The position numbers and the translations under genes are program-made. The notes below the pieces were generated by a model, which worked only from the letters and a program-made list of their open reading frames with translations, had not been told where the DNA came from and searched no databases. Below, piece by piece: positions 44,507 through 62,537 of a DNA stretch of 64,000 nt. Source of the DNA: Candidatus Poribacteria bacterium (GTDB lineage Bacteria > Poribacteria > WGA-4E > WGA-3G); the NCBI GenBank assembly GCA_012267415.1, contig JAAXGN010000135.1, positions 62,001-126,000 on the forward strand, in the 5' to 3' direction. Numbering within the stretch: the stretch's first letter is position 1; every line of letters starts with the position of its first letter.

Positions 44507-47500
44507 TCATTCTTCAAGTATGTAGTGAAGCATTTCATTGTGTGCTGTCCCCACATAGATTGTGTCTCCCGAAACAGCAAGAGATGTCACACTTTCTGGC
44601 GTATTTGAAACAACCTGTTTCCAACTCCCGTTTTCTAATCTGTAAATTCCAGAATGCTCTGTAACACCGTATAACACAGATTTATCCACAGCTAAATGCT
44701 CCATAATAAGGTTTACGTCTTCCGAATCAGTGACGGTAAACCAATTCCTACCCTCATCTGTTCTAATGATACCTGCGTCTGTTGCAACATAGGCTTTCAT
44801 GCCATCTACCACAATATCTTTAAAGGTGTTTACATGAAATGGTAGAGCCGGTGTTAGGTCAGTCCAGTTATTCCCCTTATCAAAAGATACGACAAGGTGT
44901 CCATCTCGCTTCCCAACGTAGACAGTGTCCCCTGAGACAGCAAGTATAAGGTCTTTCCTTATTGTATCTAAAGTCAATTCCACGGTTTCCTCCAATCCAG
45001 TGTCATACCATTCTGTTTCACCCGGCATCCAGCGGAAGAGTTTGAAATTATATTCCATGTAGAATGTATCATTACCTATTGCAAATGGACCCCAAAAACC
45101 ACGCCAAAAGAGATCAAGAATTGCTCTTCTTGTATCAAGCCTGTTAAGTTGATCCATTTCATTTAGTTGTTTAAAGAATTGTTCGGCACCATAGGAATTC
45201 TCTTTTGCCTTTTTTTCATTTTCCTGCATTAGAATCTCATTGTGGAATCCTGCATATTTAATATCCTGATAGAAGATTGCCATTATGCTTCCATCAATTA
45301 TAGGAATCTCCTGAACTGGCACCAGCGTTTTATCATCTTGTGATACGCGATAGATCTTTGCTTTTTGTATCCCGTCATTATCTCCTCCTTTAGCATAAAT
45401 GTCTCCATTAGATTTTACTATATGTGTAATAGTCGGTTGCTTCGTCCCAAAGTCCGTATTCTGTGTTAAATCCATCTGAATATTCTGCCACGAATTACCG
45501 CTGTCTTCAGTCAGTGCTATCTCTCCAGCAGGTCTCTTAAAGGTGTTGCCATACCGGGCAAATAAAGTAGGATGCAAACCTTTTTCTTTATCGATACCTC
45601 TATGGACAATTATATCTGCAATTGAACTTCGCTCTCTCTCTTGAGGAATATTTACTTTAAGCCATGTATTACCTTGATCCGTTGAACGATGTAGACCGTC
45701 CTGACCTTCAACATAAAATAGGGATTCGTTGAGTGCTACAGCAGGTGAAAAATAATCTTTTGAAAAAGCCGATGACGGTGGCAACCATGTGTCTCCCCCA
45801 TCAGTAGACCGAACCATACCTTGTGCAATCGCTATAAGCGTTTCACCCGCAGCAAGAAGCGTAATTCTTGGTGGCGGCCATGCTTCATGTGACCAAGTGT
45901 CTTTAGGCGTTATATCTGTCCAGGAGTCTCCAAGGTCAACAGATCTGTATATCCTCCAAGCACCCTCCAGTCCCCTGTCAACAAACCCCGGTCTTCCCAT
46001 TGCCTCAAAACTGAACTCTGTGGCAACATATAATTTTTCTTCAGCTGCTGCAAGTGAGCGAATATTCACTAACGCAGAATCTGGTAGATTCAGACGTTCC
46101 CAACTGTCACCATTCAAACGAAAGAGACCGTATTCTGTTCCAGCAAACAGAATGTTTTGGAATTCTATTAATGTAACCAATCTCTCATTCAACCCATCAT
46201 TCATTACCTTCCAGGTTTTTCCATCATCTTCAGTTCGAAATATCCCATCACCAAGAGCCACATAGAGTGCCTGCTCAGTACCAACTATGGTATTCGGTGG
46301 TCCATCATCATCATTCCACTTATGTACTAAGTCCCATGTTCTGCCATTGTTCGTTGATGCAAAGAGATCCCTAGCTGCCAATATGTAAAGAGTATTCTTC
46401 CACTTTCCCATGGGTGATACTGTCGCCCAAACAGCTGCAAATGAACTCACATCACACAAAAATTGCCATTCTGTACCATCGGGGGGATATTTATACAAAT
46501 TTAGTTTTTCTCCAAGTGCGTAAATTTCACCTTCAGGGGTAGCAAGTAGGTTAAAAACTGGACTTCCATTGATAGGGGTTTCCGATATCCATTGCTGTTT
46601 TCTTTTGGATACATCAACACCATTGTCTTGTGCGGCAGCAAATAATACATCCTCCTGTTTCTGCCCATTAATGTTATTGCTATTTGATACATTTGCTCTT
46701 CCAATCTGATTTCGCGTATCTGCAGCTTTTTCTAAATTAAGCACAAGAGACGAATCGACAAATTCAATCTTCGTTTCAGCTTGAGCATCCAGGCTATAGG
46801 GTTTCTGGAAATGTGCTAAGAACTGACTGCCAATTCCAAGCATTAAAGCAATTATCACTGCACTTGAAGCAGCAACTATCCACGGGACGATTGGCTTGCT
46901 GCCAGGTGGGGTAGGTTTAAGATGAGATACTTCTCGCATGATGTTATCTGTTATGTTCGGTGAAATCTGAAAGTGTTCAAGAGCTTCTCTAATCATAGGT
47001 TCCTCCTTTTGCAATCGTTTCTGCGCTCTACGCAGACGGCTACGAACTGTATTTGCTGATACACCTAAAAAGGTTCCGATTTCAAAACTGGACATCTCAC
47101 TGAAGTAATGTAGCGTGATGACTGTGCGTTCACTCTCTGGCAGTTTAGCAAGGAGTTGTTTTACAACATCACGTTGTGTTTCTTCGTAGATCCTTTGCTT
47201 TTCTTCAACGACATATTGTGAATAAGCGGTTTCTTGACGCTGTGTACTTTTTGTCTCATCAAAAGGAATCGTCGGCAAACGCTTTTTTCGTTGCCATGCA
47301 ATGCAGCGACGTGATGCACTCACATATAACCAGCTTGCAAAACTCTGAGGTTTCTTCAACGATCCTAATTTCTGATAGGCTTTTAGAAAAACGTCCTGTG
47401 TTAACTCTTCCGCGATGTGGAAATCCTCAATTTTTCGCCAAACCAATGCGTGAACGGCTTTTTTATATCTGTTCACAAGTTCAGTGAAAGCTGTTTCATC

Positions 47501-47545
47501 ACCATCAAGCGTGAGACGAATAAGTTCAGCATCGTTCTTTTTCAT
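44507..47545 (-). CDS. ECF sigma factor - transmembrane - beta-propeller fusion (paralogue 1)
   Basis: A 1012-residue protein. Residues 5-95 are sigma-70 region 2 (HIAEELTQDVFLKAYQKLGS) and 113-190 are region 4 (LPESERTVITLHYFSEMSS, IGTFLGVSANTVRSRLRRA). After a linker, one membrane helix starts at Trp222 (WIVAASSAVIIALMLGIGSQ). The remaining ~700 residues form a propeller with at least seven Asp boxes (STNNGRTW, TEDDGKTW, SVDLGDSW, STDGGDTW, STDQGNTW, TEDSGNSW, SFDKGNNW). By the positive-inside rule the sigma part is cytosolic and the propeller is outside. No zinc-binding anti-sigma motif (HxxxCxxC) is seen. GGAGG precedes the ATG and a conserved ECF-type promoter lies 26 bp further upstream. 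Confidence 0.9.
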   Translation of the reverse strand: MKKNDAELIRLTLDGDETAFTELVNRYKKAVHALVWRKIEDFHIAEELTQDVFLKAYQKLGSLKKPQSFASWLYVSASRRCIAWQRKKRLPTIPFDETKSTQRQETAYSQYVVEEKQRIYEETQRDVVKQLLAKLPESERTVITLHYFSEMSSFEIGTFLGVSANTVRSRLRRAQKRLQKEEPMIREALEHFQISPNITDNIMREVSHLKPTPPGSKPIVPWIVAASSAVIIALMLGIGSQFLAHFQKPYSLDAQAETKIEFVDSSLVLNLEKAADTRNQIGRANVSNSNNINGQKQEDVLFAAAQDNGVDVSKRKQQWISETPINGSPVFNLLATPEGEIYALGEKLNLYKYPPDGTEWQFLCDVSSFAAVWATVSPMGKWKNTLYILAARDLFASTNNGRTWDLVHKWNDDDGPPNTIVGTEQALYVALGDGIFRTEDDGKTWKVMNDGLNERLVTLIEFQNILFAGTEYGLFRLNGDSWERLNLPDSALVNIRSLAAAEEKLYVATEFSFEAMGRPGFVDRGLEGAWRIYRSVDLGDSWTDITPKDTWSHEAWPPPRITLLAAGETLIAIAQGMVRSTDGGDTWLPPSSAFSKDYFSPAVALNESLFYVEGQDGLHRSTDQGNTWLKVNIPQERERSSIADIIVHRGIDKEKGLHPTLFARYGNTFKRPAGEIALTEDSGNSWQNIQMDLTQNTDFGTKQPTITHIVKSNGDIYAKGGDNDGIQKAKIYRVSQDDKTLVPVQEIPIIDGSIMAIFYQDIKYAGFHNEILMQENEKKAKENSYGAEQFFKQLNEMDQLNRLDTRRAILDLFWRGFWGPFAIGNDTFYMEYNFKLFRWMPGETEWYDTGLEETVELTLDTIRKDLILAVSGDTVYVGKRDGHLVVSFDKGNNWTDLTPALPFHVNTFKDIVVDGMKAYVATDAGIIRTDEGRNWFTVTDSEDVNLIMEHLAVDKSVLYGVTEHSGIYRLENGSWKQVVSNTPESVTSLAVSGDTIYVGTAHNEMLHYILEE

Positions 47546-47570
47546 GAATTACCTCCGTGCGACATATACT

Positions 47571-47598
47571 GACGCGACTTACAAGTAAAACTGGTGCA
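47571..47598 (-). promoter_or_regulatory. Conserved ECF-type promoter of sigma-propeller gene 1
   Basis: On the minus strand: TGCACCA (47598-47592), 17-bp spacer, then CGTC (47574-47571) within GTCGCGTCAGTATA. The layout matches ECF promoters (-35 TGCAACC-like, -10 CGTC). The distance from CGTC to the ATG is 26 bp, the same as in paralogue 2. Confidence 0.8.
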
Positions 47599-47673
47599 TA
47601 ATTCTCAAAAAAAAATCAGTTTACGAGAAAGAAATATTGAGTCTCAATAGGTGGAAAACAGGTTTTACTTGTT

Positions 47674-47805: not shown

Positions 47806-47849
47806 TTGTTAAATGGAGGAAGGATTACCGTAGCCTGACTGACTTGTTA

Positions 47850-49712
47850 CTACTCTAACTGACTCATATCCCATAGACTGATCGTGCCATCATCACCACC
47901 AATGACGAGAACCTTACCATCCGATATGAAGGTCAATCCTATTGTTTGGTTTCGATTGCCTTGAAAGGCTCCTAACAGCTCACCTGATTTTACATCAACA
48001 AGACTGATCGTACCAGTAGAATCACCAGCAACCAGAGTTTTCATATCAGGTGTTAAGGTAGCATTTATAATGACCGGCCCCAGTCCTTTACGTGATCCCA
48101 ACTGTGTGCCTGTCTCAACGTCCCAAAGATAGATGTTCTGTGTGCGACCTGCGACGATGAGTGTTTTGCTGTCAGCACTGAAATTGATGCTTGAGACTAC
48201 ACGCCAGGCTTCACGTAAATTGTGTTTGAACACACCAGTCTCAATGTCCAATATCCGTACAAATAGATATTTGCTGCTAAACGCGATTGTTCTGCCATCG
48301 GGACTATAGGTGAGATGTGAGATATTAGCATCATTCGTGTCAAAGGTTTGCATCAACGCAGCATTTTGCGCGTTCCAAAGTCGTATTTTGCCATCTACGC
48401 TTGCTGTCGCGATTGTGTTACCATCTGGACTGAAAGTGATCTCTCCGATAAGTGCTTCGGTTCTTTCAAAACTGGATATCATCTCTTCAGTTTCAGCATC
48501 CCATGTGAAGATACTGTCCCATCGTGCCGTTGCTATCATACTACCGAGTGGGTGTAATGCAATTTTATTGACATCCATGATCGCATTGAACACCTTTATA
48601 TTCTTGCCCGTTGTGGTATCCCACAGACCGATGACCTTGTCATGCGTGAGGGCGGCGATAGTTTTACCATCTCCACTGATGTCGTATCCGTTCAGTTCTC
48701 CGACATGATTGTGATCTACATGGAGTTCTCTACCAGCGGCGATGTTCCATATCCGAAGGGAACCGTCTGTGCTACCGCTTGCGATAGTTCGGAAGTCTGG
48801 ACTGAAGGAGATCGCCGTTATTTTATGCTTGTGTCCTATAAGCGTTTTCATGGGACGACCCGTATCTGTTTCCCACAGATGAATAGTACCATCAACACAA
48901 CCGCCAGCGATGATGCTACCGTCAGGACTAAAAACGATTTTGTTAACCGCTCTCATTTCTCCTTTCAGAACAAGGGACAGGTTACCGTTGTTTATATCCC
49001 ATATATGGATGTGTCCACTCTCACTTCCGCTTGCGACAGTGTTCCCGTCTGGACTGAAGAGAACACAATTCACTTCACCTCTGTTTACTTGGAATTGGTG
49101 CAGTATTTCTTTCGTAGTAATCTCAGTTATCACGACGTTCCCGATGATATTACTACTTGCATATATAGGTTTGGTAGGATGGATATCAACTGTCTTGTAT
49201 AATCTCTGGTCCGGTGGCCCCATCTCCACAGTTGTCAATACCTCCTGTTCTTTGATCCTAATAGTTGTGATGCCACCCCGGACATCTAAAGCCATGATTG
49301 TTTTTCCAGTCTGATCAATGGCAATCACTAAGGGAACAATATGAGAACCCCTTGCATGCGCTACCATCCTATTTTTTCTCAGTGTTTTTGCATCCCAAGT
49401 ATTAATTTCACCATCAACATCTAAACTTACGAGTGTGTTCCCATCGGATGTCATGTCAAGGTCAGTGACGTCATCTGAATGTTTGGTCGGCAATATGTTG
49501 GTCTTATAAGTCTGTGTGTCGTATATCCAGATCCCGTTTGATGTGGCAACTGCAAGTTGTTCCCCATCTGCAACGTAGGCGATATCGTTGATCATCCCTC
49601 TACCGATCTGAGTGATTAACCCATCAGGACGATTCTGTTGGGCATCAATCTGCGATGATATGAGAAGAAGAGTGGGGATTAAGAGTACCAGAGTATGTAT
49701 TGATGTTTTCAT
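47850..49712 (-). CDS. Secreted WD40-repeat beta-propeller protein
   Basis: A 620-residue protein with a Sec signal peptide (residues 1-25, ending IDAQ). The rest is about fourteen WD40 blades, enough for two seven-bladed propellers, with repeated phrases such as IVFSPDGSIIAGGCVDGTIHLW, ISFSPDFRTIASGSTDGSLRIW and ITFSPDGNTIATASVDGKIRLW. There is no catalytic motif, so it is a binding scaffold, presumably in the periplasm. It is closely similar to the next gene and lies between sigma-propeller genes 1 and 2 on the same strand, which hints at a shared role. The ECF-type promoter of the sigma genes is not found before it. Confidence 0.9.
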   Translation of the reverse strand: MKTSIHTLVLLIPTLLLISSQIDAQQNRPDGLITQIGRGMINDIAYVADGEQLAVATSNGIWIYDTQTYKTNILPTKHSDDVTDLDMTSDGNTLVSLDVDGEINTWDAKTLRKNRMVAHARGSHIVPLVIAIDQTGKTIMALDVRGGITTIRIKEQEVLTTVEMGPPDQRLYKTVDIHPTKPIYASSNIIGNVVITEITTKEILHQFQVNRGEVNCVLFSPDGNTVASGSESGHIHIWDINNGNLSLVLKGEMRAVNKIVFSPDGSIIAGGCVDGTIHLWETDTGRPMKTLIGHKHKITAISFSPDFRTIASGSTDGSLRIWNIAAGRELHVDHNHVGELNGYDISGDGKTIAALTHDKVIGLWDTTTGKNIKVFNAIMDVNKIALHPLGSMIATARWDSIFTWDAETEEMISSFERTEALIGEITFSPDGNTIATASVDGKIRLWNAQNAALMQTFDTNDANISHLTYSPDGRTIAFSSKYLFVRILDIETGVFKHNLREAWRVVSSINFSADSKTLIVAGRTQNIYLWDVETGTQLGSRKGLGPVIINATLTPDMKTLVAGDSTGTISLVDVKSGELLGAFQGNRNQTIGLTFISDGKVLVIGGDDGTISLWDMSQLE

Positions 49713-49794: not shown

Positions 49795-51674
49795 CTACTG
49801 ATTATCATCCCATAAGATGATCACACCATCGCTGCTACGACTGACGATGGTATCGCCTGTAGAAGCGATTGACACGGACCTTATTCCATCTTTGCGCCCG
49901 ATTAATTCATCTTTGCGCCCGATTAATTCGGTTCCTGAACCCGTAGTAACGTCTACAAGAGAAATGTATCCCCAAGCATCTCCCACTGCAATCATATTCG
50001 GATTAGGAGTGAACGTCATACTTGAGATGTAAGGATTGATTAACTCTAGAATCTTTATCAGTTCACCCGTTTTGAGATCCCAGAGATAGACGTGTGAACC
50101 GGCAGCTGTTACGAGCATTTTGCTGTCAGCACTCATGCTGATGCTTGCAATTCGTCTTGTAACCCGTGTTTCATGTCTTAGAATGTACTTTAACTCGCCT
50201 GTTTCAACGTTCCACAGACGTGCGTCCATATCATTACTTAGCAAAGCGATTGTCTTACCATCGGAACTATAGATGAGACTGTTAATTGTCTCAAGATTTG
50301 TGTCAATAATGCGGTTTAGTTCTGTCGTATCAGCATTCCAGATATGTATCTTACCATCCCTACTTGCGCTTACGATAAACTTACCATCGGAACTATATAC
50401 AACATGATTGACAGGAGTAGTATGTCCTTCATAGACATTCACTTTTTCTCCTGTCTCAGTGTCCCATATACTAACGGTATTGTTGGTAGTCCTGATTGCG
50501 AATGTGTGTCCATTAGGATGTATGGCACAATCTAAGAGACCTTTCAATTCCTTATCACTGTGTACTTTGCGAGTTTTACCAGTCTCGGTGTCCCATATAC
50601 TGACGACACCACCTTTGCTGTACGCCAAGATTGTCTTGCCATTCCTTGTGACATCAAACCTTCTGAAGTTTCCCAGATGTTCGTGATAGGTGTGTCGTGT
50701 TTTGCCTGATGTGATATCCCAAATATGTAGATTACCGTCAAGGCTGCCACTTGCGATCGTGCGTAAATCAGGACTAAAAGCGAGTGCAGTGATTTTTTTG
50801 GCATGTCCTCTTAGAACTTTGAAAAATTCACCTGTATCAACAAACCAAAGGTGAATAGTGCCATCATCGCAACCCCCTGCTATTATGTTGTCATCAGGAC
50901 TGAAAGCGATCTTATTTACTGCTGTCATTTCACCTTTCAAAACGCGAATGCGTTTTCCCGTCTTCGGATCCCAAATACGTATGCTTCCGTCTTTGTGTCC
51001 ACTTGCCAATCTATTGCCATCTGAGCTGAAAGCGACGTTGTTTATTGGCAGGTTATGTCCAACCAATTCGTGTATACGTTTCGCTGAAAACGCATCCCAT
51101 ACAATAGTCTCTTTATTTATACCACCCGTTGTCAGTATATCTCCTGTCGGATCCAAGTCAAGTGATGTATAGGACTCAGGATGGGGAAACACATTTTTAA
51201 TTCCGTAGATTACTTTTATTTCTCCCGTTTTCGCATCAAATATAGTTATCGCACCGCCGAAATTTAGTGTAGCAATGATATCGCCACCCTCATTTAATCC
51301 AAGGGATACTGTTTTAGTGCCAATGTCAATGAACGAGATGTGTTGCATAGATTGCATAGTGTTTGCATCCCAAATGAACACTATACCGTCCGCATCTCCG
51401 GTAGCAAGTGTGTTTCCATCCCCGCTTATTTCAATTGCGGTTACTACATGTACATGATCATTTAGTCGCGCGACCGTTTGATATGTAATTGCGTCATAGA
51501 CCAGATCCCTTCTGAACTTGCAACTGCGATCTGTGTGCCTTCAGCGATATAGACTAAACCATTGATAGTACCTTTGCCGAGACGGATGGGTTGTCTTGCT
51601 GGTAGTGCATCATTGACGATGCTGACTGTAGATACGAATAGAAGTAAGAGTAGTATGTATTTTCGCGTTTGCAT
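49795..51674 (-). pseudogene. Secreted WD40-repeat protein, split by a single-base deletion
   Basis: The N-terminal part (51674-51462) has a signal peptide and GTINGLVYIAEGTQIAVASSEGIW, matching the start of the WD40 paralogue. The frame then breaks next to 51500/51501: the paralogue continues GIWIYD, while here the bases read TGG-TC-TAT-GAC, one base short. After the shift the frame continues YDAITYQTVARLNDHVHVVT and runs through the WD40 blades to the stop at 49795 (528 residues from the first ATG of that frame, at 51381). Adding one base gives 626 residues, equal in size to the 620-residue neighbour. It is either a recent pseudogene or a sequencing error. A 21-bp tandem duplication (49889-49930) repeats IGRKDEL near the C-terminus. 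Confidence 0.88.
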
Positions 51675-51772
51675 GAGTTCTTACCTTTAATTGTGAATCA
51701 GGAATCAGTTTTTATAAATTGAATCGGACCATAGCAATTGTCTGATCCAAGATTATCAGAATGTTCTCCTAA

Positions 51773-54700
51773 CTATTCTTCAAGTGTGTAGTGCAACATC
51801 TCATTATATTCTGTGCCAATATAGATTGTGTCGCCAGATACTGCAAGCGATGTCACACTTTCTGGCGTGTTTGAAACAACCTGTTGCCAATTCCCGTCTT
51901 CTAATCGGTAAATACCGGTTTGCTGTGTAATACCATATAAGATACTGTTATCAACGGTTATGTGTTCCATAACAAGATTAGTACCTGTTGCATCCATGAT
52001 GGTATGCCAACTTCTTCCATCATCCGTCCGTATGATACCGGCATCCGTGGCGACATAAACAGTAGAACCATCTACAATAATATCTTTGAATGTTCCCACT
52101 GTAAAGGGTAGTGCTGACGTGAGATCCGTCCAGTTATGTCCTCTATCAAAAGACACGACAAGGTGTCCATCTCTTTTGCCGGCGTAGACAGTGTCACCTG
52201 AAACCGCGAGTTTGAGATCTTTTCTTGGAAAACCCGTATCAATTTCCGTCGTTTCTTCCAAACCTGTATCATACCATTTTGCTTCACCATTCGTCCATCT
52301 AAAGAGCTTGAAGTTGTATTCCATATAGATCGTATCATTACTTACTGCAAACGGTCCCAAAAGCCCGCGTGTAAAGAGATGTGATTTTAGCATTCTTGCG
52401 TAAGCAGCGTTAGGTTGCTTTTCATCTAACTCTGTTAACTGTTTGAAAAACTGTTCAGCACCAAATGGCATTTCTTTGATTTTCTTTTCGTGTTCCAGTG
52501 CTAAATCCTTAGGAAACTGTTTCTGTATCTGACGCACATAATGAAAATGCAATAAGCCTTCATCAAATAGCGGAATATCTTGCATAGGTACAAGTTTACC
52601 GTTAACTCGTGATATACGATATACCTTTGTTCCTCCTACATTTAATAGCGTCCCACCTTTTGCATAAATGACACCATCAGATTTTACGATGTGCGAAATA
52701 CTGGGTTGTGTTTTTCTACTACGTTCAGTCATCGGTTCTATTTCCATTTGAATAGATTGCCAAGACTTACCATTGTTACTTGTTTCTACTATCTCTCCAG
52801 AGAATCTGCCAAGATTATTCGGAAATCTGGCATATATAGTCGGTTTGATATGCTGTTTACTGTTTTCCCCAAACACAATAAGGTCTTCTATAGGACTTAT
52901 TTTCTTTGCTTGAGGAATGTTGACCATATTCCATGATACACCGTCATCGGTGGAACGATGTAAACCACCCTTCCCTCCGATATAAAAAACTTGATTATTT
53001 TGGGTGAGAGCTGGCGAAGAATAGTGCTTATTCATTGATGATGGTGATAACCATGTGTCTCCAGCATCAGTGGAACGCACCATACCATTTTCCATCGCAA
53101 TAAGTGTTTCACCTGCTGCTAAGAGTGTGAGCTCGGGTGGTGCAGCTTTCTGGGGCCACGCATTATTCGGTGTAATATCTTTCCACGTGTTACCAACGTC
53201 AGTCGATCTATATATCCACCAACCGCGCACCTTCCCTTGGAAGACAGGAGTAGGATCCCCTATTGCCTCAAAGCTAAATGCTGTGGCAACATATAACTTC
53301 TTACCAGCTGTCGCTATTGATAGGATTCTTCCAACGGCTGGATCAGGCAGTTCTACGCGTTCCCAAAGGTCTCTCCTAAGGCGAAAAAGTCCATTGTCAG
53401 TGGCAGCAAATAGGACGTTCTGAAATTTTATAATTGAGATCGGATTTCCATTCATACCATCAATCATTTCTATCCATGTTTTACCATTATCTTCAGACCG
53501 CAAAACACCGGAACCAAACACGACATAGAGTGCCTGTTCAGTAGGATAGATAATATTTATACCATATCGTTCTTCCCATGTATAGATTAACTCCCACGTC
53601 TTTCCGTCATCTGTTGAAGCAAATAGTTCGTTATCGGGTAAAATGTAGAGCGTGTTTTTCCACTTTGCTATAGGGAAGGATGGCGACCATGCAGTTGGCA
53701 ACGACTCAACATTGCATAGATATTGCCACTCGCTACCATCAGCCGGTAATTTGAAAATATGCATTTCATCGTTATGTGCATAGAGTTCACCTTCGGGTGT
53801 CGCATGCAGGTATGACACGGAACTACCCTTGATGGGTGTAGCAGGAATCCACTGCTGTTCGGGGGTAGAGTCATCTACACCATCGTTATGTGCGGCAGCA
53901 AATGATACATTTTCCTGTTTCTGTCCATTATTGTTGTTATTTACTAATGCATTTGCTCTTCCAACCTGATTTCGCGTATCCGGTTGAAACGCCAAATTTA
54001 GCACAAGATGCGAATCGACAAGCTCAACTGCCGTTTCAGCTTGAGCATCCAGACTATAAGGTTTCTGGTAATGTGCTAAAAACTGACTTCCAATTCCAAG
54101 CATCAGAATAATAAGAACTGCACTTGAAGCGGCAACAATCCACGAGATAATTGGTTTGCTGCCGGATGGGGTAGGTTTAATATGAGATACTTCTCTCATG
54201 ATGTTATCTGTTAGGTTAGGCGAAATCTGAAAATGTTCAAGTGCTTCTCTAATCATAGGTTCCTCCTGTTGCAATCGTTGCAGTGCTCTACGCAGACGAC
54301 TCCGAATCGTATTTGCTGATACACCTAAAAAGGCACCGATTTCAAAACTGGACATCTCACTGAAGTAATGTAGGGTGAGGACTGTGCGTTCACTCTCTGG
54401 CAGTTTAGCAAGTAATTTTTTGACAACATCGCGTTGCGCTTCCTCGGATACACGTTGGTTCTCATTAACAACAAACTGTGAGTAAGTTGTATCTTCATCC
54501 TGCACTTCACTTGTATCCTCCAAAGACTTCATCGGTAAACGCTTTTTGCGATGCCATGCAAGACAGCGACGTGATGCACTTACATATAACCAACTGGCAA
54601 AACTCTGTGGTTTCTTTATTGAACCCAATTGATTGTAAGCATGCAAAAAGACATCTTGTGTAATCTCCTCAGCGATGTGAAAATCACCTATTTTTCGCCA

Positions 54701-54805
54701 GACTAATGCATGAACCGCACTGCGATACTTTTCCACAAGTTTCGCAAAAGCAGTGTCGTCACCATCAAGCGTGAGATGAATAAGCTCAATATCGTTGTTT
54801 TTCAT
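51773..54805 (-). CDS. ECF sigma factor - transmembrane - beta-propeller fusion (paralogue 2)
   Basis: A 1010-residue protein, nearest to paralogue 1. Sigma region 2 (HIAEEITQDVFLHAYNQLGS) and region 4 (ERTVLTLHYFSEMSSFEIG, VSANTIRSRLRRALQRL) are intact. The membrane helix again starts at Trp222 (WIVAASSAVLIILMLGIGSQ). The outer part carries Asp boxes such as STDDGKTW, SEDNGKTW, STDVGNTW, STDAGDTW, STDDGVSW, SNNGKSW and SFDRGHNW. The C-terminus SVTSLAVSGDTIYIGTEYNE is shared with all paralogues. It is transcribed towards the broken WD40 gene, which begins 98 bp after its stop. The sequence between the helix and the propeller is the most variable, consistent with different sensing properties. 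Confidence 0.9.
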   Translation of the reverse strand: MKNNDIELIHLTLDGDDTAFAKLVEKYRSAVHALVWRKIGDFHIAEEITQDVFLHAYNQLGSIKKPQSFASWLYVSASRRCLAWHRKKRLPMKSLEDTSEVQDEDTTYSQFVVNENQRVSEEAQRDVVKKLLAKLPESERTVLTLHYFSEMSSFEIGAFLGVSANTIRSRLRRALQRLQQEEPMIREALEHFQISPNLTDNIMREVSHIKPTPSGSKPIISWIVAASSAVLIILMLGIGSQFLAHYQKPYSLDAQAETAVELVDSHLVLNLAFQPDTRNQVGRANALVNNNNNGQKQENVSFAAAHNDGVDDSTPEQQWIPATPIKGSSVSYLHATPEGELYAHNDEMHIFKLPADGSEWQYLCNVESLPTAWSPSFPIAKWKNTLYILPDNELFASTDDGKTWELIYTWEERYGINIIYPTEQALYVVFGSGVLRSEDNGKTWIEMIDGMNGNPISIIKFQNVLFAATDNGLFRLRRDLWERVELPDPAVGRILSIATAGKKLYVATAFSFEAIGDPTPVFQGKVRGWWIYRSTDVGNTWKDITPNNAWPQKAAPPELTLLAAGETLIAMENGMVRSTDAGDTWLSPSSMNKHYSSPALTQNNQVFYIGGKGGLHRSTDDGVSWNMVNIPQAKKISPIEDLIVFGENSKQHIKPTIYARFPNNLGRFSGEIVETSNNGKSWQSIQMEIEPMTERSRKTQPSISHIVKSDGVIYAKGGTLLNVGGTKVYRISRVNGKLVPMQDIPLFDEGLLHFHYVRQIQKQFPKDLALEHEKKIKEMPFGAEQFFKQLTELDEKQPNAAYARMLKSHLFTRGLLGPFAVSNDTIYMEYNFKLFRWTNGEAKWYDTGLEETTEIDTGFPRKDLKLAVSGDTVYAGKRDGHLVVSFDRGHNWTDLTSALPFTVGTFKDIIVDGSTVYVATDAGIIRTDDGRSWHTIMDATGTNLVMEHITVDNSILYGITQQTGIYRLEDGNWQQVVSNTPESVTSLAVSGDTIYIGTEYNEMLHYTLEE

Positions 54806-54830
54806 GATCTGTCTCCATACTACGTATAGT

Positions 54831-54858
54831 GACGCGACTTAGGTGCAAAACTGGTGCA
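54831..54858 (-). promoter_or_regulatory. Conserved ECF-type promoter of sigma-propeller gene 2
   Basis: Minus strand: TGCACCA (54858-54852), 17-bp spacer, CGTC (54834-54831) in AAGTCGCGTCACTATA. Position relative to the ATG at 54805 is identical to gene 1 (26 bp). Confidence 0.8.
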
Positions 54859-55065
54859 TAATTCTGCGAAATGAGATGATCTAAATTTGAGTAGAAGTAT
54901 CTGCTAATAGCATTTCTAATTGATACCTTCTGTTTATTGTAGCACAATCTCTTAGTTTATGCCTTTCTCCGTTTCATATCTAACAGTCGGTTATGAGCAA
55001 TACCTTCATCAATTGGAACGTAGTCCATGGTGTGAATTTTAGATGATCGAACCCACAAAAACGAT

Positions 55066-55377: not shown

Positions 55378-55404
55378 ATCGTGTGCAAGTAATTATAGAT
55401 TTTA

Positions 55405-55501: not shown

Positions 55502-58500
55502 CTACTCAACAACATAGTGGAGCATACCACGTTTCATTGTGGCTACATATAGTGTATTTTCATCAACAGCAAAAGATGTCACTCTTTCAGGTGTTTCTGA
55601 TACAATTTGTTCCCAAGTGCCATTCACCAAGAGATAAACACCAGTTTTATCAGTCATTCCATACAGCCTTCTTCCATCAACAGCCAAGTATTCCATGACG
55701 AGTTCTGTTCCCTCTGCATCCGTGATAACATCCCACTGTGTTCCATTGTTTGACACCGCTACACCGGCATCCGTTGCTACATATATTTTGGATCCAACGA
55801 ACTTTATGTCCTTGTACGCAATAACCGGAAACGGTAATCTTTCTGTGATGTCTGTCCAATTATCTCCTCTATCATAAGATACAAGAAGGTGTCCATCCCG
55901 TTTGCCAACGTAGACAGTATCACCCGAAACAGCAAGTTTGAGATTATACAAAACCCTAAACTTTTCCAATGCTTGTCCTTTTGGCGCACCAGCGGGAGCT
56001 AAACCAGCGGGTAGATACCTTCCATCAGGCAATCTGACAGTAAGACCAATCGTCTCTTCCACACCCGTATCAAACAATTCTCTTTCACCTTGTGTCCATC
56101 GGAAGAGCTTGAAGTTGTATTCTAAATAGAATGTATCATCGCTTATTGCAAATGGACCGTTTAAGCCTCTCTCTATGAGGTCACGTTGAACCATAAAAAT
56201 TTGGCCTGGAAAATCTCCTTGTCCCAAATTTGCTACTTTTCCCCGTGCTAATTCCACTAATTCTTTGAAAAATTGGTCTGCTCCGATAGCATCTTCTTTT
56301 AATTCCTCAAGAAGCGACTCATCTGATGATTTTAATGGATTAGTTATACTCCGTTTTAACTTCAGTGAATATGAGCTGGAGTCCAAGATTGGAAAACCTT
56401 GAATACGTAACAGCGAATTACCATCTTCAGATATCTTATACAGATCAACTTCCTTTTCAACGTCATATCCACTACCACCTTTAGCATAAAGTCCTTCATC
56501 AGCGACTATTATACCAAGAATCTCCGGTTGGTCCTCCCTTAAGGGTGCTGTCATTGGAACTTCCAGTTCTATAGAATGCCAAGACTTACCTCTGTCCGTA
56601 GTTTTGACGAGTGATCTCCAAGACTTTGCATAGACTGCTGAAACTCTCTCTTGCACATTCTCAATTCCATCATACACAATTAACTTATCTATGATACTCC
56701 TTGAAAACTTCCTACGTGCTGGTATTTCGATACGTTCCCATGTTTTTCCACCATCTTTGGATCTTTGAAATCCATCACCACCAACATAAATGATACGGTC
56801 GTTTAGTACCACAGCAGGTGAGGAGTAGAAATTCATTGAAGGTGAAGCATTCGGTTTCACTGGCGGCAGCCACGATTCTCCACCATCAGTTGACATTACC
56901 ATGCCCTTCTCCATTAGTAGCAGGTTCTCTCCAGCAGCAATAAGCTTAATACCCGGGGGATATCCTTTAATGGGCCAAGCATTTGTCGGTGTTATATCTT
57001 TCCACGTATTCCCCAGATCAGTTGAGCGAAATACCCACCATGTCCGTTGAAGCCCCCTTGATGCTGCTCGAGGATCAAAATCTTCTAAAATTGCCATAGC
57101 ATATAGACGATTCTTGGAACCAACGAGTGAAATAACAAGGACAGATTCAGGTATTGGAAACGTTAACTTTTGCCAACCATCAACATTGCCTCGATATAAA
57201 TCTGTTCCTGATGTAACAAATGCTGTATCTTGTAAGACTGTTATAGAGTTGGGGACATCTGGTAATTCATCACGCATGTCCTTCCATGTCTTCCCTTGAT
57301 CCTCTGAACGGTAAGCTGCATCTGGGTAAACAAGATAGAAAGATTGTTCCGTTAACACCAGATCCTGTGCTTCCCAATCCCTTCCACCAGCAGGTATTTC
57401 CCATTTATATACCAAGTTCCATGTTTCTCCATCATCTTTAGAGGCATAGAATTCATTATGCCACACCATATATAGAATACCGTTCCATTCCGCAATAAGT
57501 GATACAGGATCCGTAAAATTATCTTTTATAGAATTCATATCATTGATATGTTCCCAACTTTCACCATCGCTACCCAATTTGTAGAGGTGTCCACCCGTGG
57601 ATAACGTATAAAGTTCCCCTTCAGGGGTCGCAAGTAATTCACTTGGAAAAGCGAATGCTTGGCGTTCAGGTTCAACCCACTCCCTCTGAGGCACTGAAAT
57701 GTCTTCACCTTCTGTTTCTCCATCAGCCAACAAAACTTCATCTGGATTCTGTCCGCTGTTGTCATTTTCACCCATTGCATTTGCATTTCCAAACTGATTC
57801 TGCTTATCCGTTTGTGTATCAAGGTTTAGAACTATAGGTGCATCAATAAGCTCAACCGCCATCTCTGACTGAGCATCGAAACTATACGGTTTCTGAAAAT
57901 AAGCTAAGAACTGACTCCCTACACCCAACATCAGCAGAATCAGAACAGCACTTGAAGCTGCGACTGCCCACGGGATTATGGGTTTGCTGGTTGGTGCAGC
58001 AGGTTTAATACGGGAAACTCTCGTTAGTATATTGTCAGTAAGGTTTGGTGAAATCTGGAAGTGTTCGAGTGCTTCTCTAATCATGTGTTCCTCCTTCTGT
58101 AAACGGTTTCGCGCACGTTGTAATCGACTTTTGATCGTTCCTGCAGACACACCTATAAACTTGCTTATCTCTTCAACAGTCATCTCACCGAGATAGTGAA
58201 GTGTCATCACAGTACGTTCACTCTCTTTAAGTTTTGCCAATAATTTTTTGACGACCTCACGGTGTGTATCAGCATCAGTTTTTGCGCGTTCTTCTACGAC
58301 ATGTTGTGAGTATAGGTCTTTATCCTGCATCATAATTTCTTCGTCTTCTAACGGTTGCGTCTGTATCCGTTTTTTACGGTGCCATGTTGCACATAAATTC
58401 GCTGTTATTACATAGAGCCACCCAGAAAACAGATTCGGATCTTTCAGCGAGTGCAGTTCTTGAAATACTTTCAGGAATGCATCCTGTGTAATCTCTTCAG

Positions 58501-58633
58501 CGATTTGGAAATCTCCAACTTTCCGCCATGCAAGCGCGTGAACCTGTTTCTTGTAGCAATTCACAAGTTCTTCAAATGCCGATTCATCGCCAGCGAGAAT
58601 CTTTTTGATAAGGTCCGTATCTGTGTTACGCAT
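55502..58633 (-). CDS. ECF sigma factor - transmembrane - beta-propeller fusion (paralogue 3)
   Basis: A 1043-residue protein. The ATG at 58633 puts the membrane-helix Trp at residue 222, exactly as in paralogues 1 and 2, while the ATG at 58681 lies only two bases from the -10 element, so 58633 is chosen. Sigma region 2 (QIAEEITQDAFLKVFQELHS) and region 4 (ERTVMTLHYLGEMTVEEIS, VSAGTIKSRLQRARNRL) are complete. Asp boxes include SKDDGETW, SEDQGKTW, STDLGNTW, STDGGESW, SKDGGKTW and SYDRGDNW. It has an insertion of about 25 residues (LPDGRYLPAGLAPAGAPKGQ) before the last blades that the others lack. Sequence divergence suggests an older duplication than the pair 1/2. Confidence 0.9.
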   Translation of the reverse strand: MRNTDTDLIKKILAGDESAFEELVNCYKKQVHALAWRKVGDFQIAEEITQDAFLKVFQELHSLKDPNLFSGWLYVITANLCATWHRKKRIQTQPLEDEEIMMQDKDLYSQHVVEERAKTDADTHREVVKKLLAKLKESERTVMTLHYLGEMTVEEISKFIGVSAGTIKSRLQRARNRLQKEEHMIREALEHFQISPNLTDNILTRVSRIKPAAPTSKPIIPWAVAASSAVLILLMLGVGSQFLAYFQKPYSFDAQSEMAVELIDAPIVLNLDTQTDKQNQFGNANAMGENDNSGQNPDEVLLADGETEGEDISVPQREWVEPERQAFAFPSELLATPEGELYTLSTGGHLYKLGSDGESWEHINDMNSIKDNFTDPVSLIAEWNGILYMVWHNEFYASKDDGETWNLVYKWEIPAGGRDWEAQDLVLTEQSFYLVYPDAAYRSEDQGKTWKDMRDELPDVPNSITVLQDTAFVTSGTDLYRGNVDGWQKLTFPIPESVLVISLVGSKNRLYAMAILEDFDPRAASRGLQRTWWVFRSTDLGNTWKDITPTNAWPIKGYPPGIKLIAAGENLLLMEKGMVMSTDGGESWLPPVKPNASPSMNFYSSPAVVLNDRIIYVGGDGFQRSKDGGKTWERIEIPARRKFSRSIIDKLIVYDGIENVQERVSAVYAKSWRSLVKTTDRGKSWHSIELEVPMTAPLREDQPEILGIIVADEGLYAKGGSGYDVEKEVDLYKISEDGNSLLRIQGFPILDSSSYSLKLKRSITNPLKSSDESLLEELKEDAIGADQFFKELVELARGKVANLGQGDFPGQIFMVQRDLIERGLNGPFAISDDTFYLEYNFKLFRWTQGERELFDTGVEETIGLTVRLPDGRYLPAGLAPAGAPKGQALEKFRVLYNLKLAVSGDTVYVGKRDGHLLVSYDRGDNWTDITERLPFPVIAYKDIKFVGSKIYVATDAGVAVSNNGTQWDVITDAEGTELVMEYLAVDGRRLYGMTDKTGVYLLVNGTWEQIVSETPERVTSFAVDENTLYVATMKRGMLHYVVE

Positions 58634-58682
58634 AGAGTCACTCCAAAAACAATTAGGATGAACTATCCTATCATAACACAAT

Positions 58683-58710
58683 GACGCAACTTATGCACAA
58701 AACGGTTGCA
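58683..58710 (-). promoter_or_regulatory. Conserved ECF-type promoter of sigma-propeller gene 3
   Basis: Minus strand: TGCAACC (58710-58704), 17-bp spacer, CGTC (58686-58683) in AAGTTGCGTCATTGTG. The -35 is the canonical TGCAACC. CGTC lies 50 bp upstream of the ATG at 58633. Confidence 0.8.
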
Positions 58711-58836
58711 TAATTCTGCACATCTTGTGCTGCTTTTAATAGTAAACTGTCTATTCTTACATTGTAGTTAGTGTTGAGTGAAGCTAAACCTATAAGTGTA
58801 AACTTAAGGATTTTTTTCCATGCAGAACATCTCCCA

Positions 58837-59000
58837 AGTCCCGTAGGGACGATATGTTTATAGATAAACGTTGACAGACACCTCTTTAGTCCCGTAGGGA
58901 CGATATGTTTATGTTATTGCTTAATTTTACACATATCGTCCCTACGGGACTAAAAGTCTGGTGTTCAATCAATCTATAAACATATCGTCCCTACGGGACT
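58837..59000. repeat. Four REP-like units GTCCCGTAGGGACGATATG, two in each orientation
   Basis: Direct units at 58837-58863 and 58888-58912, inverted units at 58931-58951 and 58974-59000. Each has the palindromic core GTCCCGTAGGGAC followed by GATATGTTTAT. The head-to-head arrangement can fold into large hairpins. No REP-associated transposase gene is in the window. Confidence 0.88.
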
Positions 59001-59179: not shown

Positions 59180-59224
59180 TAGAAGTTGATAAACTATCAA
59201 GAATATGTTAGCATTTGAGTTAAA

Positions 59225-59449
59225 ATGAACAAGAAAGACAACCAAATTCCACAATTTGCACTATGCTTTAACAACGAAGGTTATACCGCATCTCTTGAAG
59301 TAGGCAAATTCTATCGTGTCATTCCTGATGAAGAAGCAGCGGAGCACGGTTATATTCGCGTAATTGATGAAAGCGGTGAAGACTATGCTTATACGACTAA
59401 TAGGTTTCACTTCGTTCAGTTACCGATTGAAGTTGCCATCTATAGTTGA
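59225..59449 (+). CDS. Small conserved protein of unknown function
   Basis: A 74-residue soluble protein (FALCFNNEGYTASLEVGKFYRVIPDEEAAEHGYIRVIDESGEDY). The pattern of a small beta-barrel-like domain with an IRVIDESGEDYAY motif resembles short conserved proteins seen in cyanobacteria and other phyla, so I take it as a real gene. It is the only plus-strand gene inside the sigma-propeller cluster and has its own extended -10 promoter. Function unknown. Confidence 0.72.
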   Translation: MNKKDNQIPQFALCFNNEGYTASLEVGKFYRVIPDEEAAEHGYIRVIDESGEDYAYTTNRFHFVQLPIEVAIYS

Positions 59450-59528
59450 AAGGGCACTGTTAGCCATCAGACAGACTTATGAATTCAACGACACCAAAGC
59501 GGGTTAACAAAGACTCCGTAGACCAGAA

Positions 59529-62500
59529 CTACTCAACAAGATTGTAATGCAACACCCCATCATGCAGTGTACCAACATATATGATACTTCCATCTACAGC
59601 GAGTGAGGTTACATTTGCGGGTATCTTTAAAACAACACGTTGCCATGTACCGTTTTCTAAACGATAGATGCCTGTGTCTTTGGTAACACCGTATAAGACA
59701 GAACGATCAATAGCCAAATGTTCCATAACCAAGTTCGTATCTGCTGCATCCGTAACGGTGATCCAACTTCTCCCATCATCCGTTTTTATGATACCCGCGT
59801 CGGTTGCGATGTAGGCAGTCGATCCATCTATGATTATATCTTTAAATGTCTTTACAGGAAATGGCAGTGCTGGTGTAATGTCAATCCAATTCGTACCATT
59901 ATCAAAGGAGACGACAAGATGTCCATCCCGTTTACCAACGTACACTGTCTCACCTGATACCCCAAGTTGGAGATCTTTGAATGCTACTTCCAAAGTCAAT
60001 TCAGTCGTTTCTTCAATTCCGACGGGTTCCCATCTTCTTTGTCCTGTTTTCCAACGGAAGAGCATATAGTTGTATTCCATGAAGAAGGTATCACCACTGA
60101 CTGCAAAGGGACCCGTACGGAACGCTAATTGCATATAGACATCCGGCTGTTTAGGATCCCATTCTGCCATCTGTCTAAAGAATTCAATAGCACCAGAAGC
60201 GACCTCTTGTAGTTGTTGTGCATCGGGTTTTTCCGATGTCTGCAATGCTTGCATCCTCAAATCTGACCATTTGTGATATAACGCACTTAAGTCATATCTT
60301 GGCACGCCTACAATCGGTGTTAAAGTAACGCCATCTTCTGCAGAAATACGATATAATCCGATTTCTCCATGTCCAAGTCGATCTCCCCCTTTAGCATAGA
60401 CTGCATCACTATATTTGAAAAAATGTGTAATGTCAGGCTGTTCTGATCGAGCAGGATTATCCATGCGTATTCCCTCTTTGACTTTATGCCAAGTCTTGCC
60501 TTGATTGTTGGTGCTATTCAATTTTTTACCCGATCTTGCATAAAGAATCGTAGGGGTATTCATGGATCTATTCTTGGGTTTAAAAGCAAGAAGATCATCA
60601 ATCCTGCTAACCCCACTGATATTTACTTTGTACCATGTCTTTCCACTATCAGTAGAGCGATGTAAACCGTCATCACTACTAACATAAAACTCACTGTCAT
60701 TTACAACAGCGACGACATCTACATCACCACTCATTGTAGGTGTAGTCCCAGGTGCCTGAACAGGTTGCCAAGTATCTCCACTATCAGTAGAGCGAACCAT
60801 ACCTTTCTCCATTACCATAACCGTCTCACCAGCAGCAACAAGCTTAACATGCGGGGGCCAACCATTTAGAGACCAAGCGTTTGTCGGTGTTATATCCGTC
60901 CAAGACCTACCCAAATCTGTTGATCTAAATATCCACCATGAACGCTGCAGTCCGCGGGATATCAAACGCGGATCTGACTCTGTATCACTTAATTCTGCAG
61001 CAACATATAACATGTCATTCGTTACAGCGACTGAACGAATCCCGCCAATATTCTCAGGAAAGTCTACACTTTTCCACGCATCAGCCTCTAAACGATAGAG
61101 ACCATTGTCAGTACCGACGAATATAGTGTCCTGTATTTCAACGATAGACCGGATGGAATCTAATGGCCTGTTAAGTGATAACCCGGTGTTTAGATCTTCC
61201 CATGTCTTTCCTTCGTCTTTGGACCTTACAATTCCACTCTCAAAAGCGATATAGAACGCTGACTCTGTCAATAACATTCCTTCTGCATACCAGTCTTGTT
61301 CCCAGGCATGACGCAATTTCCATGTCTTACCGTCATCTGTTGAAGTAAAAAGTTCATGAGAGGGGACAAAGTAAAGTGTATTCTTCCATCTGGCAAATGG
61401 TGAGTTACCACCGAAACCGGTATTCAAGTTGATAATGTCAAAAAGATGCTGCCAACTGCTGCCATCCTCAGACAATTTGAAGATACTTGGATTAGGTCCA
61501 CCCATAACGTAGAGTTCACCATCAGCAGTTGAAAACATGCTATTTACCCTACTACCCTCTAATGGTTCAGACTTAATCCATTGCTGTTCGGTTTCAGGAG
61601 TGTTTTCTCCATTCTCCTGTGCGGACAGTGCTGAAACGCCATCTGGTTTCTGTCCAGTATTTTCATTTCCTTCAGGTTCTCTTATACTACCAATCCGGTT
61701 TTGCACATCTGGTTTTATCTCAAAATTCTGGACGATAGGTGCGTTAATAAGTTCAACGGACATTTCTGTCTGAGAATCTAAACTGTAAGGTTTCTGAAAG
61801 TGTGATAGGAACTGACTCCCTATCCCAAGCATTAACATAATCAATACTGCACCTGTTGCTGCAGCGATCCACGGGACAAACGGTTTGCTGCCAGATGGTG
61901 TTGTGGGATTTATCCGCGAAATTTCCTGCATGATATTCTTCGTGAGAGTCGGTGTGATTTGGTAGTTCTCTAAAGCTTCTCGGATCATGTTTTCCTCCTT
62001 TTTTAGAAACTGTCTCGCGCGATAGAGTCTATTCTTTATCGCGCTAACCGAGACTCCTAAAAACCTGCTTATCTCTTCATACGTCATTCCCCCGAGGTAG
62101 TATAAGGTTATGACCGTGCGGTCACCTTCCTGTAACTTTGCAAGCAACTTTTTCACGACTTCGCGTCGTGCTTCTGCCGATGTCCGTTCCCTTTCCTGAA
62201 TGACATAGTGGGAATATGTTTCTTTGTCCACTTCTGAACTGCTTGTATCATCCAGCGACTGTGTCTGCAGACGTTTCTTGCGCAGCCAAGCTTTGCAATT
62301 GTTCGCTGTTATTACATAGAGCCAACTCTCAAAAGAGTGTGGTTTCTTGAGTGATGACAGTTTATTGTATGCTTTCAGGAATGTATCCTGCGTTATCTCC
62401 TCTGCGATATGGAAATCTCCAATTTTCCGCCACGCAAGCGCGTGGACAGACTTCTTATACTTTTCCATAAGTGTAGAGAAAGCAGAATCATCACCGTCAA

Positions 62501-62537
62501 TCACACGTTGAATAAGTTCAGCATCAGGATTATTCAT
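59529..62537 (-). CDS. ECF sigma factor - transmembrane - beta-propeller fusion (paralogue 4)
   Basis: A 1002-residue protein. Sigma region 2 (HIAEEITQDTFLKAYNKLSS) and region 4 (DRTVITLYYLGGMTYEEIS, VSVSAIKNRLYRARQFL) are complete; the membrane helix starts at Trp223 (WIAAATGAVLIMLMLGIGSQ). Outside, Asp boxes include STDDGKTW, SKDEGKTW, STDLGRSW, STDSGDTW, STDSGKTW, NNQGKTW and SFDNGTNW. The conserved C-terminus reads NVTSLAVDGSIIYVGTLHDG. It differs most from the others in the promoter -35 (TGAGACT) and in region 4 helix 2, so its promoter preference may have drifted. No gene for a separate anti-sigma factor lies nearby. Confidence 0.9.
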   Translation of the reverse strand: MNNPDAELIQRVIDGDDSAFSTLMEKYKKSVHALAWRKIGDFHIAEEITQDTFLKAYNKLSSLKKPHSFESWLYVITANNCKAWLRKKRLQTQSLDDTSSSEVDKETYSHYVIQERERTSAEARREVVKKLLAKLQEGDRTVITLYYLGGMTYEEISRFLGVSVSAIKNRLYRARQFLKKEENMIREALENYQITPTLTKNIMQEISRINPTTPSGSKPFVPWIAAATGAVLIMLMLGIGSQFLSHFQKPYSLDSQTEMSVELINAPIVQNFEIKPDVQNRIGSIREPEGNENTGQKPDGVSALSAQENGENTPETEQQWIKSEPLEGSRVNSMFSTADGELYVMGGPNPSIFKLSEDGSSWQHLFDIINLNTGFGGNSPFARWKNTLYFVPSHELFTSTDDGKTWKLRHAWEQDWYAEGMLLTESAFYIAFESGIVRSKDEGKTWEDLNTGLSLNRPLDSIRSIVEIQDTIFVGTDNGLYRLEADAWKSVDFPENIGGIRSVAVTNDMLYVAAELSDTESDPRLISRGLQRSWWIFRSTDLGRSWTDITPTNAWSLNGWPPHVKLVAAGETVMVMEKGMVRSTDSGDTWQPVQAPGTTPTMSGDVDVVAVVNDSEFYVSSDDGLHRSTDSGKTWYKVNISGVSRIDDLLAFKPKNRSMNTPTILYARSGKKLNSTNNQGKTWHKVKEGIRMDNPARSEQPDITHFFKYSDAVYAKGGDRLGHGEIGLYRISAEDGVTLTPIVGVPRYDLSALYHKWSDLRMQALQTSEKPDAQQLQEVASGAIEFFRQMAEWDPKQPDVYMQLAFRTGPFAVSGDTFFMEYNYMLFRWKTGQRRWEPVGIEETTELTLEVAFKDLQLGVSGETVYVGKRDGHLVVSFDNGTNWIDITPALPFPVKTFKDIIIDGSTAYIATDAGIIKTDDGRSWITVTDAADTNLVMEHLAIDRSVLYGVTKDTGIYRLENGTWQRVVLKIPANVTSLAVDGSIIYVGTLHDGVLHYNLVE

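Follow-up and report, generated by a model that had tools for sequence, protein, structure and literature searches.

In IutY of Pseudomonas putida (ECF243), an extracytoplasmic function (ECF) sigma factor, a membrane anchor and an outer part are joined in one protein, and its activation through cleavage by Prc and RseP has been shown (PMC8999054). ECF52 (SCO4117), ECF48 and ECF53 of Actinobacteria carry a C-terminal extension with one or more membrane helices, which in ECF52 includes an outer carbohydrate-binding domain (PMC8999054), and ECF57 and other WD40-bearing ECF factors of Planctomycetes carry a propeller-type C-terminal extension (PMC8999054, PMC8567305; the comparison literature also includes PMC4598750). 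Here we describe four genes, P0001–P0004, on the minus strand of a 64,000-nt stretch of a Candidatus Poribacteria genome (GCA_012267415.1, contig JAAXGN010000135.1, positions 62,001 to 126,000; hereafter the window), each encoding an ECF sigma factor joined through a single predicted membrane helix to an Asp-box β-propeller (Table 1).

The window proteins resemble IutY in uniting sigma factor, anchor and outer part in a single protein. The C-terminal part of IutY, however, is a fused membrane-bound anti-sigma factor of an iron-carrier system, and no FecR-like anti-sigma domain of that type was found in P0001–P0004 with Pfam at E values up to 0.01. ECF52, ECF48 and ECF53 have one or two membrane helices after the sigma domain, as the window proteins have one, but they also carry a zinc-finger anti-sigma domain; Pfam finds no such zf-HC2 domain between sigma and helix in P0001–P0004, and a comparable array of dozens per genome is not mentioned in section 16 of PMC8999054. 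ECF57 is described with two cysteines that possibly link sigma2 and sigma4 (PMC8999054, PMC8567305), whereas the window sigma parts contain only Cys81 (and Cys26 in P0003), with none in sigma4. WD40 repeats, a feature of ECF57, are not found in the window proteins, which match Asp-box-type models, and occur in siblings elsewhere in the genome; this separation from ECF57 is drawn against review descriptions. RsgI of Clostridium thermocellum is likewise a paralogous membrane-anchored set that senses various substrates and is cut by RseP (PMC12203970), but RsgI is an anti-sigma factor, whereas in the window proteins the sigma factor itself is anchored. By analogy the mechanism may be like that of IutY or ECF52, although group membership fails for want of an anti-sigma domain. 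What appears to be new here is an ECF promoter just upstream of the genes, in which bases vary together with residues of the sigma factor that the gene itself encodes.

No literature joining ECF sigma factors with Poribacteria was found, nor any published account of these fusions, as judged by titles, the starts of abstracts and term counts. A report of abundant WD40 and leucine-rich-repeat (LRR) domains in Poribacteria does not use the word sigma in its available part (PMC3909097).

Four sigma factors with an outer propeller

As an initial annotation of the window had proposed, the four frames are uninterrupted on one strand, and by Pfam matches, hydrophobicity and Asp-box counts each combines both sigma regions (2 and 4) with a single membrane helix and an Asp-box propeller. 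Sigma70_r2, Sigma70_r4, Sigma70_r4_2 and TIGR02937 (sigma70-ECF) all score above cut-off in all four proteins, which have sigma2 and sigma4 alone, with a short linker, as in ECF (group IV) factors. The closest relatives of the sigma part in the PDB are SigW, sigmaE and AlgU, and in an AlphaFold2 (AF2) model of P0004 residues 1–275 the sigma2 part fits sigmaE region 2 with the −10 strand (4lup, root-mean-square deviation (rmsd) 1.4, 90 columns). By every test made on their sequences and predicted fold, the window proteins are ECF (group IV) sigma factors.

The propeller part is about 675–720 residues long, with 7 Asp-boxes per protein by a relaxed pattern and 4–6 by a strict one. In this C-terminal part Sortilin-Vps10 and DUF6242 score above the Pfam cut-off in all four proteins, and PSII_BNR and BNR/BNR_6 in some. 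The best Foldseek matches of the P0004 model, obtained through the propeller, are hybrid two-component sensors of the BT4673/BT4663 type and GH74 xyloglucanases (E about 1e-17 to 1e-12). With a TM-score of about 0.2 and an rmsd of about 19–29, the resemblance does not go beyond the repeat fold, and these proteins have no sigma factor; any carbohydrate binding by the window proteins is putative.

The most likely start of P0003 is the ATG at 58633 rather than the TTG at 58681, because the promoter-like site, with its end at 58681, then lies 47 nt from the start codon, a spacing also found in relatives. In nine pairwise comparisons, eight of them with window genes, the ratio of nonsynonymous to synonymous substitution rates (dN/dS) is 0.05–0.20 for the sigma part and 0.16–0.39 for the outer part, indicating that both are under purifying selection. 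Over its full length, P0004 has its nearest named relatives in other Candidatus Poribacteria genomes, at 89, 79 and 48% identity.

A large family within Poribacteria

The four window genes are a small part of a large fusion family with dozens of members per Poribacteria genome. The window genome (5.46 Mb, 170 contigs, 97.6% complete, 5.29% contamination) has 65 Sigma70_r2 matches, most but not all of which are covered by the window and 40 further stretches that were fetched (the genome's own L-numbered loci). A profile of the window sigma domains found 56 sigma frames in these regions, 42 of them longer than 300 residues; 29 of these 42 fusions have a membrane helix and 13 do not.

A profile of 17 tethers (residues 183–280) matches 37 times in the window genome, far more than the four copies first counted, and in 67 of 84 genomes of the phylum. 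Within the window's family all 58 genomes match, with at least 1593 matches (median 23, range 1–60, the best 60 candidates per genome being scored); in the rest of the phylum there are 18 matches, in 9 of 26 genomes. Assembly error is excluded as the cause because five of the tether-matching genomes are single contigs. A peptide-based scan of contigs for hits outside the phylum, which detects close relatives only, returned three Poribacteria loci over the full length and two Bacteroidetes loci over the sigma part only, and a plasmid search with a WD40 sibling returned WD40 proteins, none of the records reaching 80% coverage of the query.

The tether and its topology

Each window protein has one hydrophobic segment, at residues 219–239 (235–253 in P0003 when numbered from its TTG), with a mean Kyte–Doolittle (KD) value of 2.1–2.4. 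The tryptophan noted earlier at the helix start is borne out as Trp223 (P0004 numbering), which is invariant in a 12-sequence alignment, and the helix is followed by a conserved segment with the consensus QkPYslda.sE..vEivdapiVln. Across 168 fusions, 42 from the window genome and 126 from relatives, a helix is present in 155, starting at residues 219–225 with a mean KD of 2.23. The 20 residues before it contain more lysine and arginine than the 20 after it in 131 of the 155 cases, equal numbers in 23 and fewer in 1. These charges place the sigma domain inside and the propeller outside (N-in, C-out), the predicted topology agreeing with that of the initial annotation. Mean pairwise identity of the post-helix segment, in the 29 own-genome fusions with a helix, is 0.48 within an outer type and 0.45 between types, suggesting that tether similarity hardly depends on the outer type.

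Uniform position, hydrophobicity and charge bias are difficult to reconcile with a cytoplasmic C-terminal domain that serves as a partner-binding platform, the hydrophobic stretch being no real anchor. The WD40 extensions of ECF57 have been read as protein-interaction modules of that kind (PMC8999054), and the stretch is missing from 13 of the 42 own-genome fusions; we nevertheless regard this explanation as very improbable for the family. Two frames at L019 (L019:1694-4471:- and L019:4764-7568:-) join an Asp-box propeller straight to the sigma domain without a membrane helix.

No zf-HC2 gene adjoins a fusion. The genome's four zf-HC2 matches all lie next to short ECF genes, and ordinary ECF/zf-HC2 pairs thus coexist with the tethered fusions; the absence of a separate anti-sigma partner, expected from the initial annotation, holds for zf-HC2, the sole anti-sigma type searched.

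ECF-type promoters upstream of the genes

ECF factors commonly recognize AAC-type −35 and CGT-type −10 elements and commonly activate their own genes (PMC8103513). Sites with these elements precede all four window genes, with GAGAC instead of GCAAC at the −35 of P0004. They form three promoter classes, P0001 and P0002 being identical at the −35 and almost so at the −10, and so speak against the earlier suggestion of four signals.

A promoter matrix of 18 own-genome sites was applied to 126 genes from 29 relatives, fetched by their resemblance to P0004. In the 120 nt upstream, 116 of the 126 exceeded the 99% null, as against 3 in an inside-gene control, and at the 95% null the counts were 118 and 6; the test is not wholly independent, the matrix coming from the window genome and some genes being orthologues. 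In the reverse test, a matrix of the 118 relatives' sites placed 22 of the 42 own-genome fusions above the 99% null and 27 above the 95% null, compared with one (the unextended member of the clade) and two of 14 short ECF genes.

Whole-genome searches point to the same genes. ATGCAMCN{13,20}GCGTCA has ten exact matches (reversed control, 1), seven directly upstream of fusion genes, one upstream of an unextended sigma gene of the same clade and two elsewhere. A 20-position pattern with up to three mismatches has eight matches (control, 0), seven of them directly upstream of fusion genes and the eighth in front of a few genes the last of which is a fusion gene. The pattern of the P0004 class has two, both before fusion genes (the second, C151, in L014). 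A third pattern, with a badly chosen gap, gave 13 matches against 20 in its reversed control and was not used. Weaker sites before non-sigma genes in own-genome loci (for example L030_5471 and L028_4672) are mixed with sites inside genes, and we claim no targets from them. At L025:6369-6399:-, an ECF-type site resembling those of the fusions stands before two genes and then a sigma fusion; the exported-type protein in this run may be co-regulated with the fusion.

Promoter bases covary with sigma residues

Promoters were called for 140 of the 168 genes (118 from relatives, 22 own), and the 28 without a call were excluded from a covariation screen of 285 variable columns. The calls are pattern-based and require a G at −35 and a C at −10, where invariance is meaningless. 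The tree was built from codons of the sigma part minus residues 76–91 and 145–177, and the P values below are uncorrected and rest on simple parsimony on this one tree.

Four residues stand out, and all four remain the best columns on this sigma tree lacking the contact regions. For both −34 and −33 the best column is residue 169, serine occurring with C-34/A-33 and asparagine with A-34/G-33; for five of its seven changes, −34 changes on the same branch (P 9e-9). Residue 153 is best for −30 (Y with T, V with C, S with A), with 7 of 21 changes coinciding (P 2e-7). Residue 86 is best for −13 (R with C in 125 genes, S with A in 12, three exceptions), with 6 of 7 changes coinciding (P 8e-11). Residue 83, the weakest of the four, is best for −15, with 8 of 24 (P 3e-4). 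No convincing contact residue emerged from the screen for −32, −12 or −8.

In an alignment to sigmaE, residues 169 and 153 correspond to S172, which contacts the base at −34, and Y156, which is located at −30, in SigW/sigmaE structures (PMC6713349). Residues 83 and 86 belong to the side of sigma2 turned towards the −10 element and would make their contacts there. From this matching of promoter bases to sigma residues within one gene, the tethered sigma domains evidently recognize the promoters of the genes that encode them and would autoregulate, and the covariation supports a competent sigma domain, as first annotated.

Outer domains are exchanged on a shared module

Among the 42 own-genome fusions, 16 have an Asp-box outer part, 13 a WD40 one and the rest others: LRR with GHL15 (L016), C-type lectin (L024), M16_C (L018), FtsZ (two) or nothing clear. 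On an IQ-TREE sigma tree, 38 of the 42 and one unextended member form one branch (support 99/99) apart from ordinary ECF factors, and the remaining four lie in a separate clade. Along the own-genome sigma tree the Asp-box label changes 9 times and the WD40 label 8 times, with at least 7 and at least 6 changes, respectively, forced by well-supported branches. On this phylogenetic evidence, promoter, sigma and tether are a shared module on which outer domains have replaced one another on many occasions. The 13 outer-type changes on the covariation sigma tree (121 Asp-box, 19 other) were not relied on, this gene set having been picked by similarity to P0004. The −35 core changes 45 times on a tree inferred from the sequence beyond residue 185 and 14 times on the sigma tree (133 versus 140 genes). 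This is consistent with a promoter and sigma that move as a unit and recombine with outer parts, although tree error and the slightly differing gene sets add to the difference.

Two own-genome frames, L028:16060-17286:+ and L039:2032-3849:-, join the sigma domain to a tubulin/FtsZ GTPase (PF00091, E 4e-42 and 3.5e-34) with no helix. Near full-query matches to this fusion occur in 32 of 35 searched genomes of the window's family; in 23 genomes outside it, the FtsZ part alone appears among the matches listed.

Some outer parts resemble an exported protein encoded nearby. This is so for 4 of 13 of the other kind (0.19 expected; 0/20000 shuffles) and for 11 of 13 WD40 fusions (5.45 expected; P 0.0098), in a test that excluded two sigma-less tether relics and the window genes before 38000. 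Non-sigma neighbours resembling a fusion C terminus are found at L018:538-1842:+ (64% identity), L024:4155-5549:+ (29%), L025:4588-5397:- (35%) and L017:3223-3807:+ (49%), as if the sigma factor there carried a copy of its neighbour. The notion that every outer domain is such a copy holds for some kinds and fails for the Asp-box kind (0/16). In relatives' loci, the Asp-box outer part is matched by 2 of 56 non-sigma frames, both seemingly pieces of split fusions.

These neighbours bear on the possibility that the gene exists to make the propeller, with the sigma domain as a dedicated transcription unit: cleavage would be constitutive, the propeller would be exported, and the sigma factor would do no more than keep the gene on. 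The stand-alone neighbours at L018 (64% over 405 amino acids) and L024 (29% over 432 amino acids) both have signal-peptide-like starts, whole-genome pattern searches gave no other promoter targets, and split sigma-tether and propeller frames exist (L026; G009). We consider this improbable, since none of the 16 Asp-box fusions has a stand-alone homologue in the fetched neighbourhood and the anchor itself is conserved.

At L026:1605-4511:-, sigma-tether and propeller lie in two adjoining frames (415 and 544 amino acids), split or broken; L099, in a single-contig genome (G009), is a similar case, with adjoining frames of about 298 and 712 amino acids. Tethers without a sigma domain occur at L033:5135-6874:+ and L034:8145-9068:+, as relics or anchors reused alone. 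The split frames (L026, L020, L099) and these sigma-less loci could be read as decaying members of a self-spreading paralogue family, the window genes being recent non-functional duplicates. There is hardly any chance of this, given dN/dS well below 1 in both the sigma and the outer parts of the window genes, the sigma–promoter covariation and full-length copies in many genomes.

Neighbouring genes in the window

Two WD40 genes accompany the sigma genes. A link of P0005 to the sigma genes may exist, and P0006, downstream of P0002, could be co-transcribed with it. In the P0006 region (49795-51680) a signal-peptide-like start (ATG near 51675) is out of frame with the rest of the gene, reflecting a frameshift or an assembly error. 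A palindrome-like repeat around CGTCCCTACGGGAC occupies about 58820-58963, between P0003 and P0004, and similar repeats lie upstream of genes in L028 and L031.

Table 1. Coordinates of the tethered sigma genes, their parts and their neighbours in the window
Feature	Position	Strand	Basis or remark
P0001, tethered ECF sigma factor with Asp-box propeller	44507..47545	-	1012 aa; frame, Pfam, hydrophobicity/Asp-box scan
P0002, P0001-like architecture	51773..54805	-	1010 aa; frame, Pfam, hydrophobicity/Asp-box scan
P0003, P0001-like architecture	55502..58633	-	inner ATG as start; frame open from TTG at 58681
P0004, P0001-like architecture	59529..62537	-	1002 aa; frame, Pfam, hydrophobicity/Asp-box scan
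Sigma regions 2 and 4, P0001 (residues 1-182)	47000..47545	-	Pfam
Sigma regions 2 and 4, P0002	54260..54805	-	Pfam
Sigma regions 2 and 4, P0003	58088..58633	-	Pfam
Sigma regions 2 and 4, P0004	61992..62537	-	Pfam, sigmaE alignment, AF2 model
Membrane helix, P0001 (residues 219-237)	46835..46891	-	hydrophobicity
Membrane helix, P0002	54095..54151	-	hydrophobicity
Membrane helix, P0003	57923..57979	-	hydrophobicity
Membrane helix, P0004 (residues 221-239)	61821..61877	-	hydrophobicity; AF2 helix 222-236, low confidence
Tether module, P0004 (residues 183-280)	61698..61991	-	juxtamembrane stretch, helix, post-helix QKPYSLD..E..VE; first row of the tether profile (A3)
ECF-type promoter, P0001: ATGCACCA-N15-CGCGTCAG	47569..47599	-	ends 23 nt before ATG
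ECF-type promoter, P0002: ATGCACCA-N15-CGCGTCAC	54829..54859	-	ends 23 nt before ATG
ECF-type promoter, P0003: ATGCAACC-N15-TGCGTCAT	58681..58711	-	ends 47 nt before ATG
ECF-type promoter, P0004: ATGAGACT-N14-CGCGTCAC	62583..62612	-	ends 45 nt before ATG
P0005, WD40 protein, signal-peptide-like N terminus	47850..49712	-	Pfam
P0006, WD40 protein	49795..51381	-	Pfam

A possible one-protein signalling pathway

To the features established from sequence (architecture, charge topology, purifying selection, a promoter of each gene's own, covariation and outer-domain exchange) we would add a mechanism that we think probable, if far from certain: a one-protein transmembrane sigma receptor with signal-triggered release, self-transcription and an exchangeable outer domain. 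The ECF sigma factor would be held inactive in the cytoplasm by the single membrane helix, while the Asp-box propeller outside would sense or dock a ligand. A signal would free the sigma domain, most likely through regulated proteolysis of the RseP type in or near the helix, and the freed sigma factor would transcribe its own gene from the ECF promoter directly upstream, such that triggering would increase the amount of that receptor. Promoter, sigma and tether would be a shared output module beneath swapped outer domains.

Release by RseP-type cleavage is plausible. The window genome has a gene for an RseP-like protease, which carries little weight, as such a gene is also present in 14 of 14 control genomes. 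Tethered sigma fusions with known activation are precedents for proteolysis, shown for IutY and supported for ECF52 (PMC8999054). These precedents count against a ToxR-like alternative, in which the anchored sigma factor is itself active, a change in the propeller alters its dimerization or accessibility, and RNA polymerase is brought to the membrane without cleavage. Initiation far from the membrane would presumably be hindered in such a scheme. It would, however, accommodate a tether conserved on either side of the membrane and a promoter close to the gene that encodes the anchored protein, and cleavage of the fusions is itself argued from analogy; overall we consider the ToxR-like scheme unlikely.

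Several observations weigh against the proposed mechanism as the general rule. That the tethered form is inactive is something we infer. The RseP-like gene is of a housekeeping type and adjoins what is, judging by its sequence, presumably dxr. The helix is missing from 13 of the 42 own-genome fusions, including the two Asp-box ones at L019, and the outer part can therefore also be cytoplasmic; in relatives, the uniform helix is partly a product of selection, since those 126 proteins were chosen by similarity to P0004. AlphaFold confidence is low for the juxtamembrane part and the helix. With the relatives' matrix, no site above the 95% null precedes 15 of the 42 own-genome fusions, and exact and mismatch patterns, which in the whole genome hit little besides promoters of the family, give no target beyond fusion genes and one short gene run. 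Further, a stand-alone homologue is absent from the fetched surroundings of the Asp-box fusions (0/16), split or sigma-less members occur, and the metagenome-assembled genome has 5.29% contamination.

A bolder and doubtful extension is that the array is a set of self-amplifying, distinguishable receptors, in which the own gene, with any co-transcribed neighbours, is the main or only target, promoter classes insulate members from one another, and the outcome is a winner-takes-all choice. If so, the cell would commit to large amounts of the engaged receptor, and outer-domain exchange would renew what is sensed.

If the proposed mechanism is true, one lineage has transmembrane sigma factors on the scale of two-component systems, with up to 60 scored tether matches per genome. 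Receptor, transcription factor and reporter promoter would lie in one gene, each testable without knowledge of a regulon, and the 140 natural sigma–promoter pairs, including the class with a GAGAC −35, would be a ready set for working out the specificity code of ECF factors. The family also offers a test of whether anchoring, in the absence of any recognizable anti-sigma domain, is enough to keep a sigma factor inactive.

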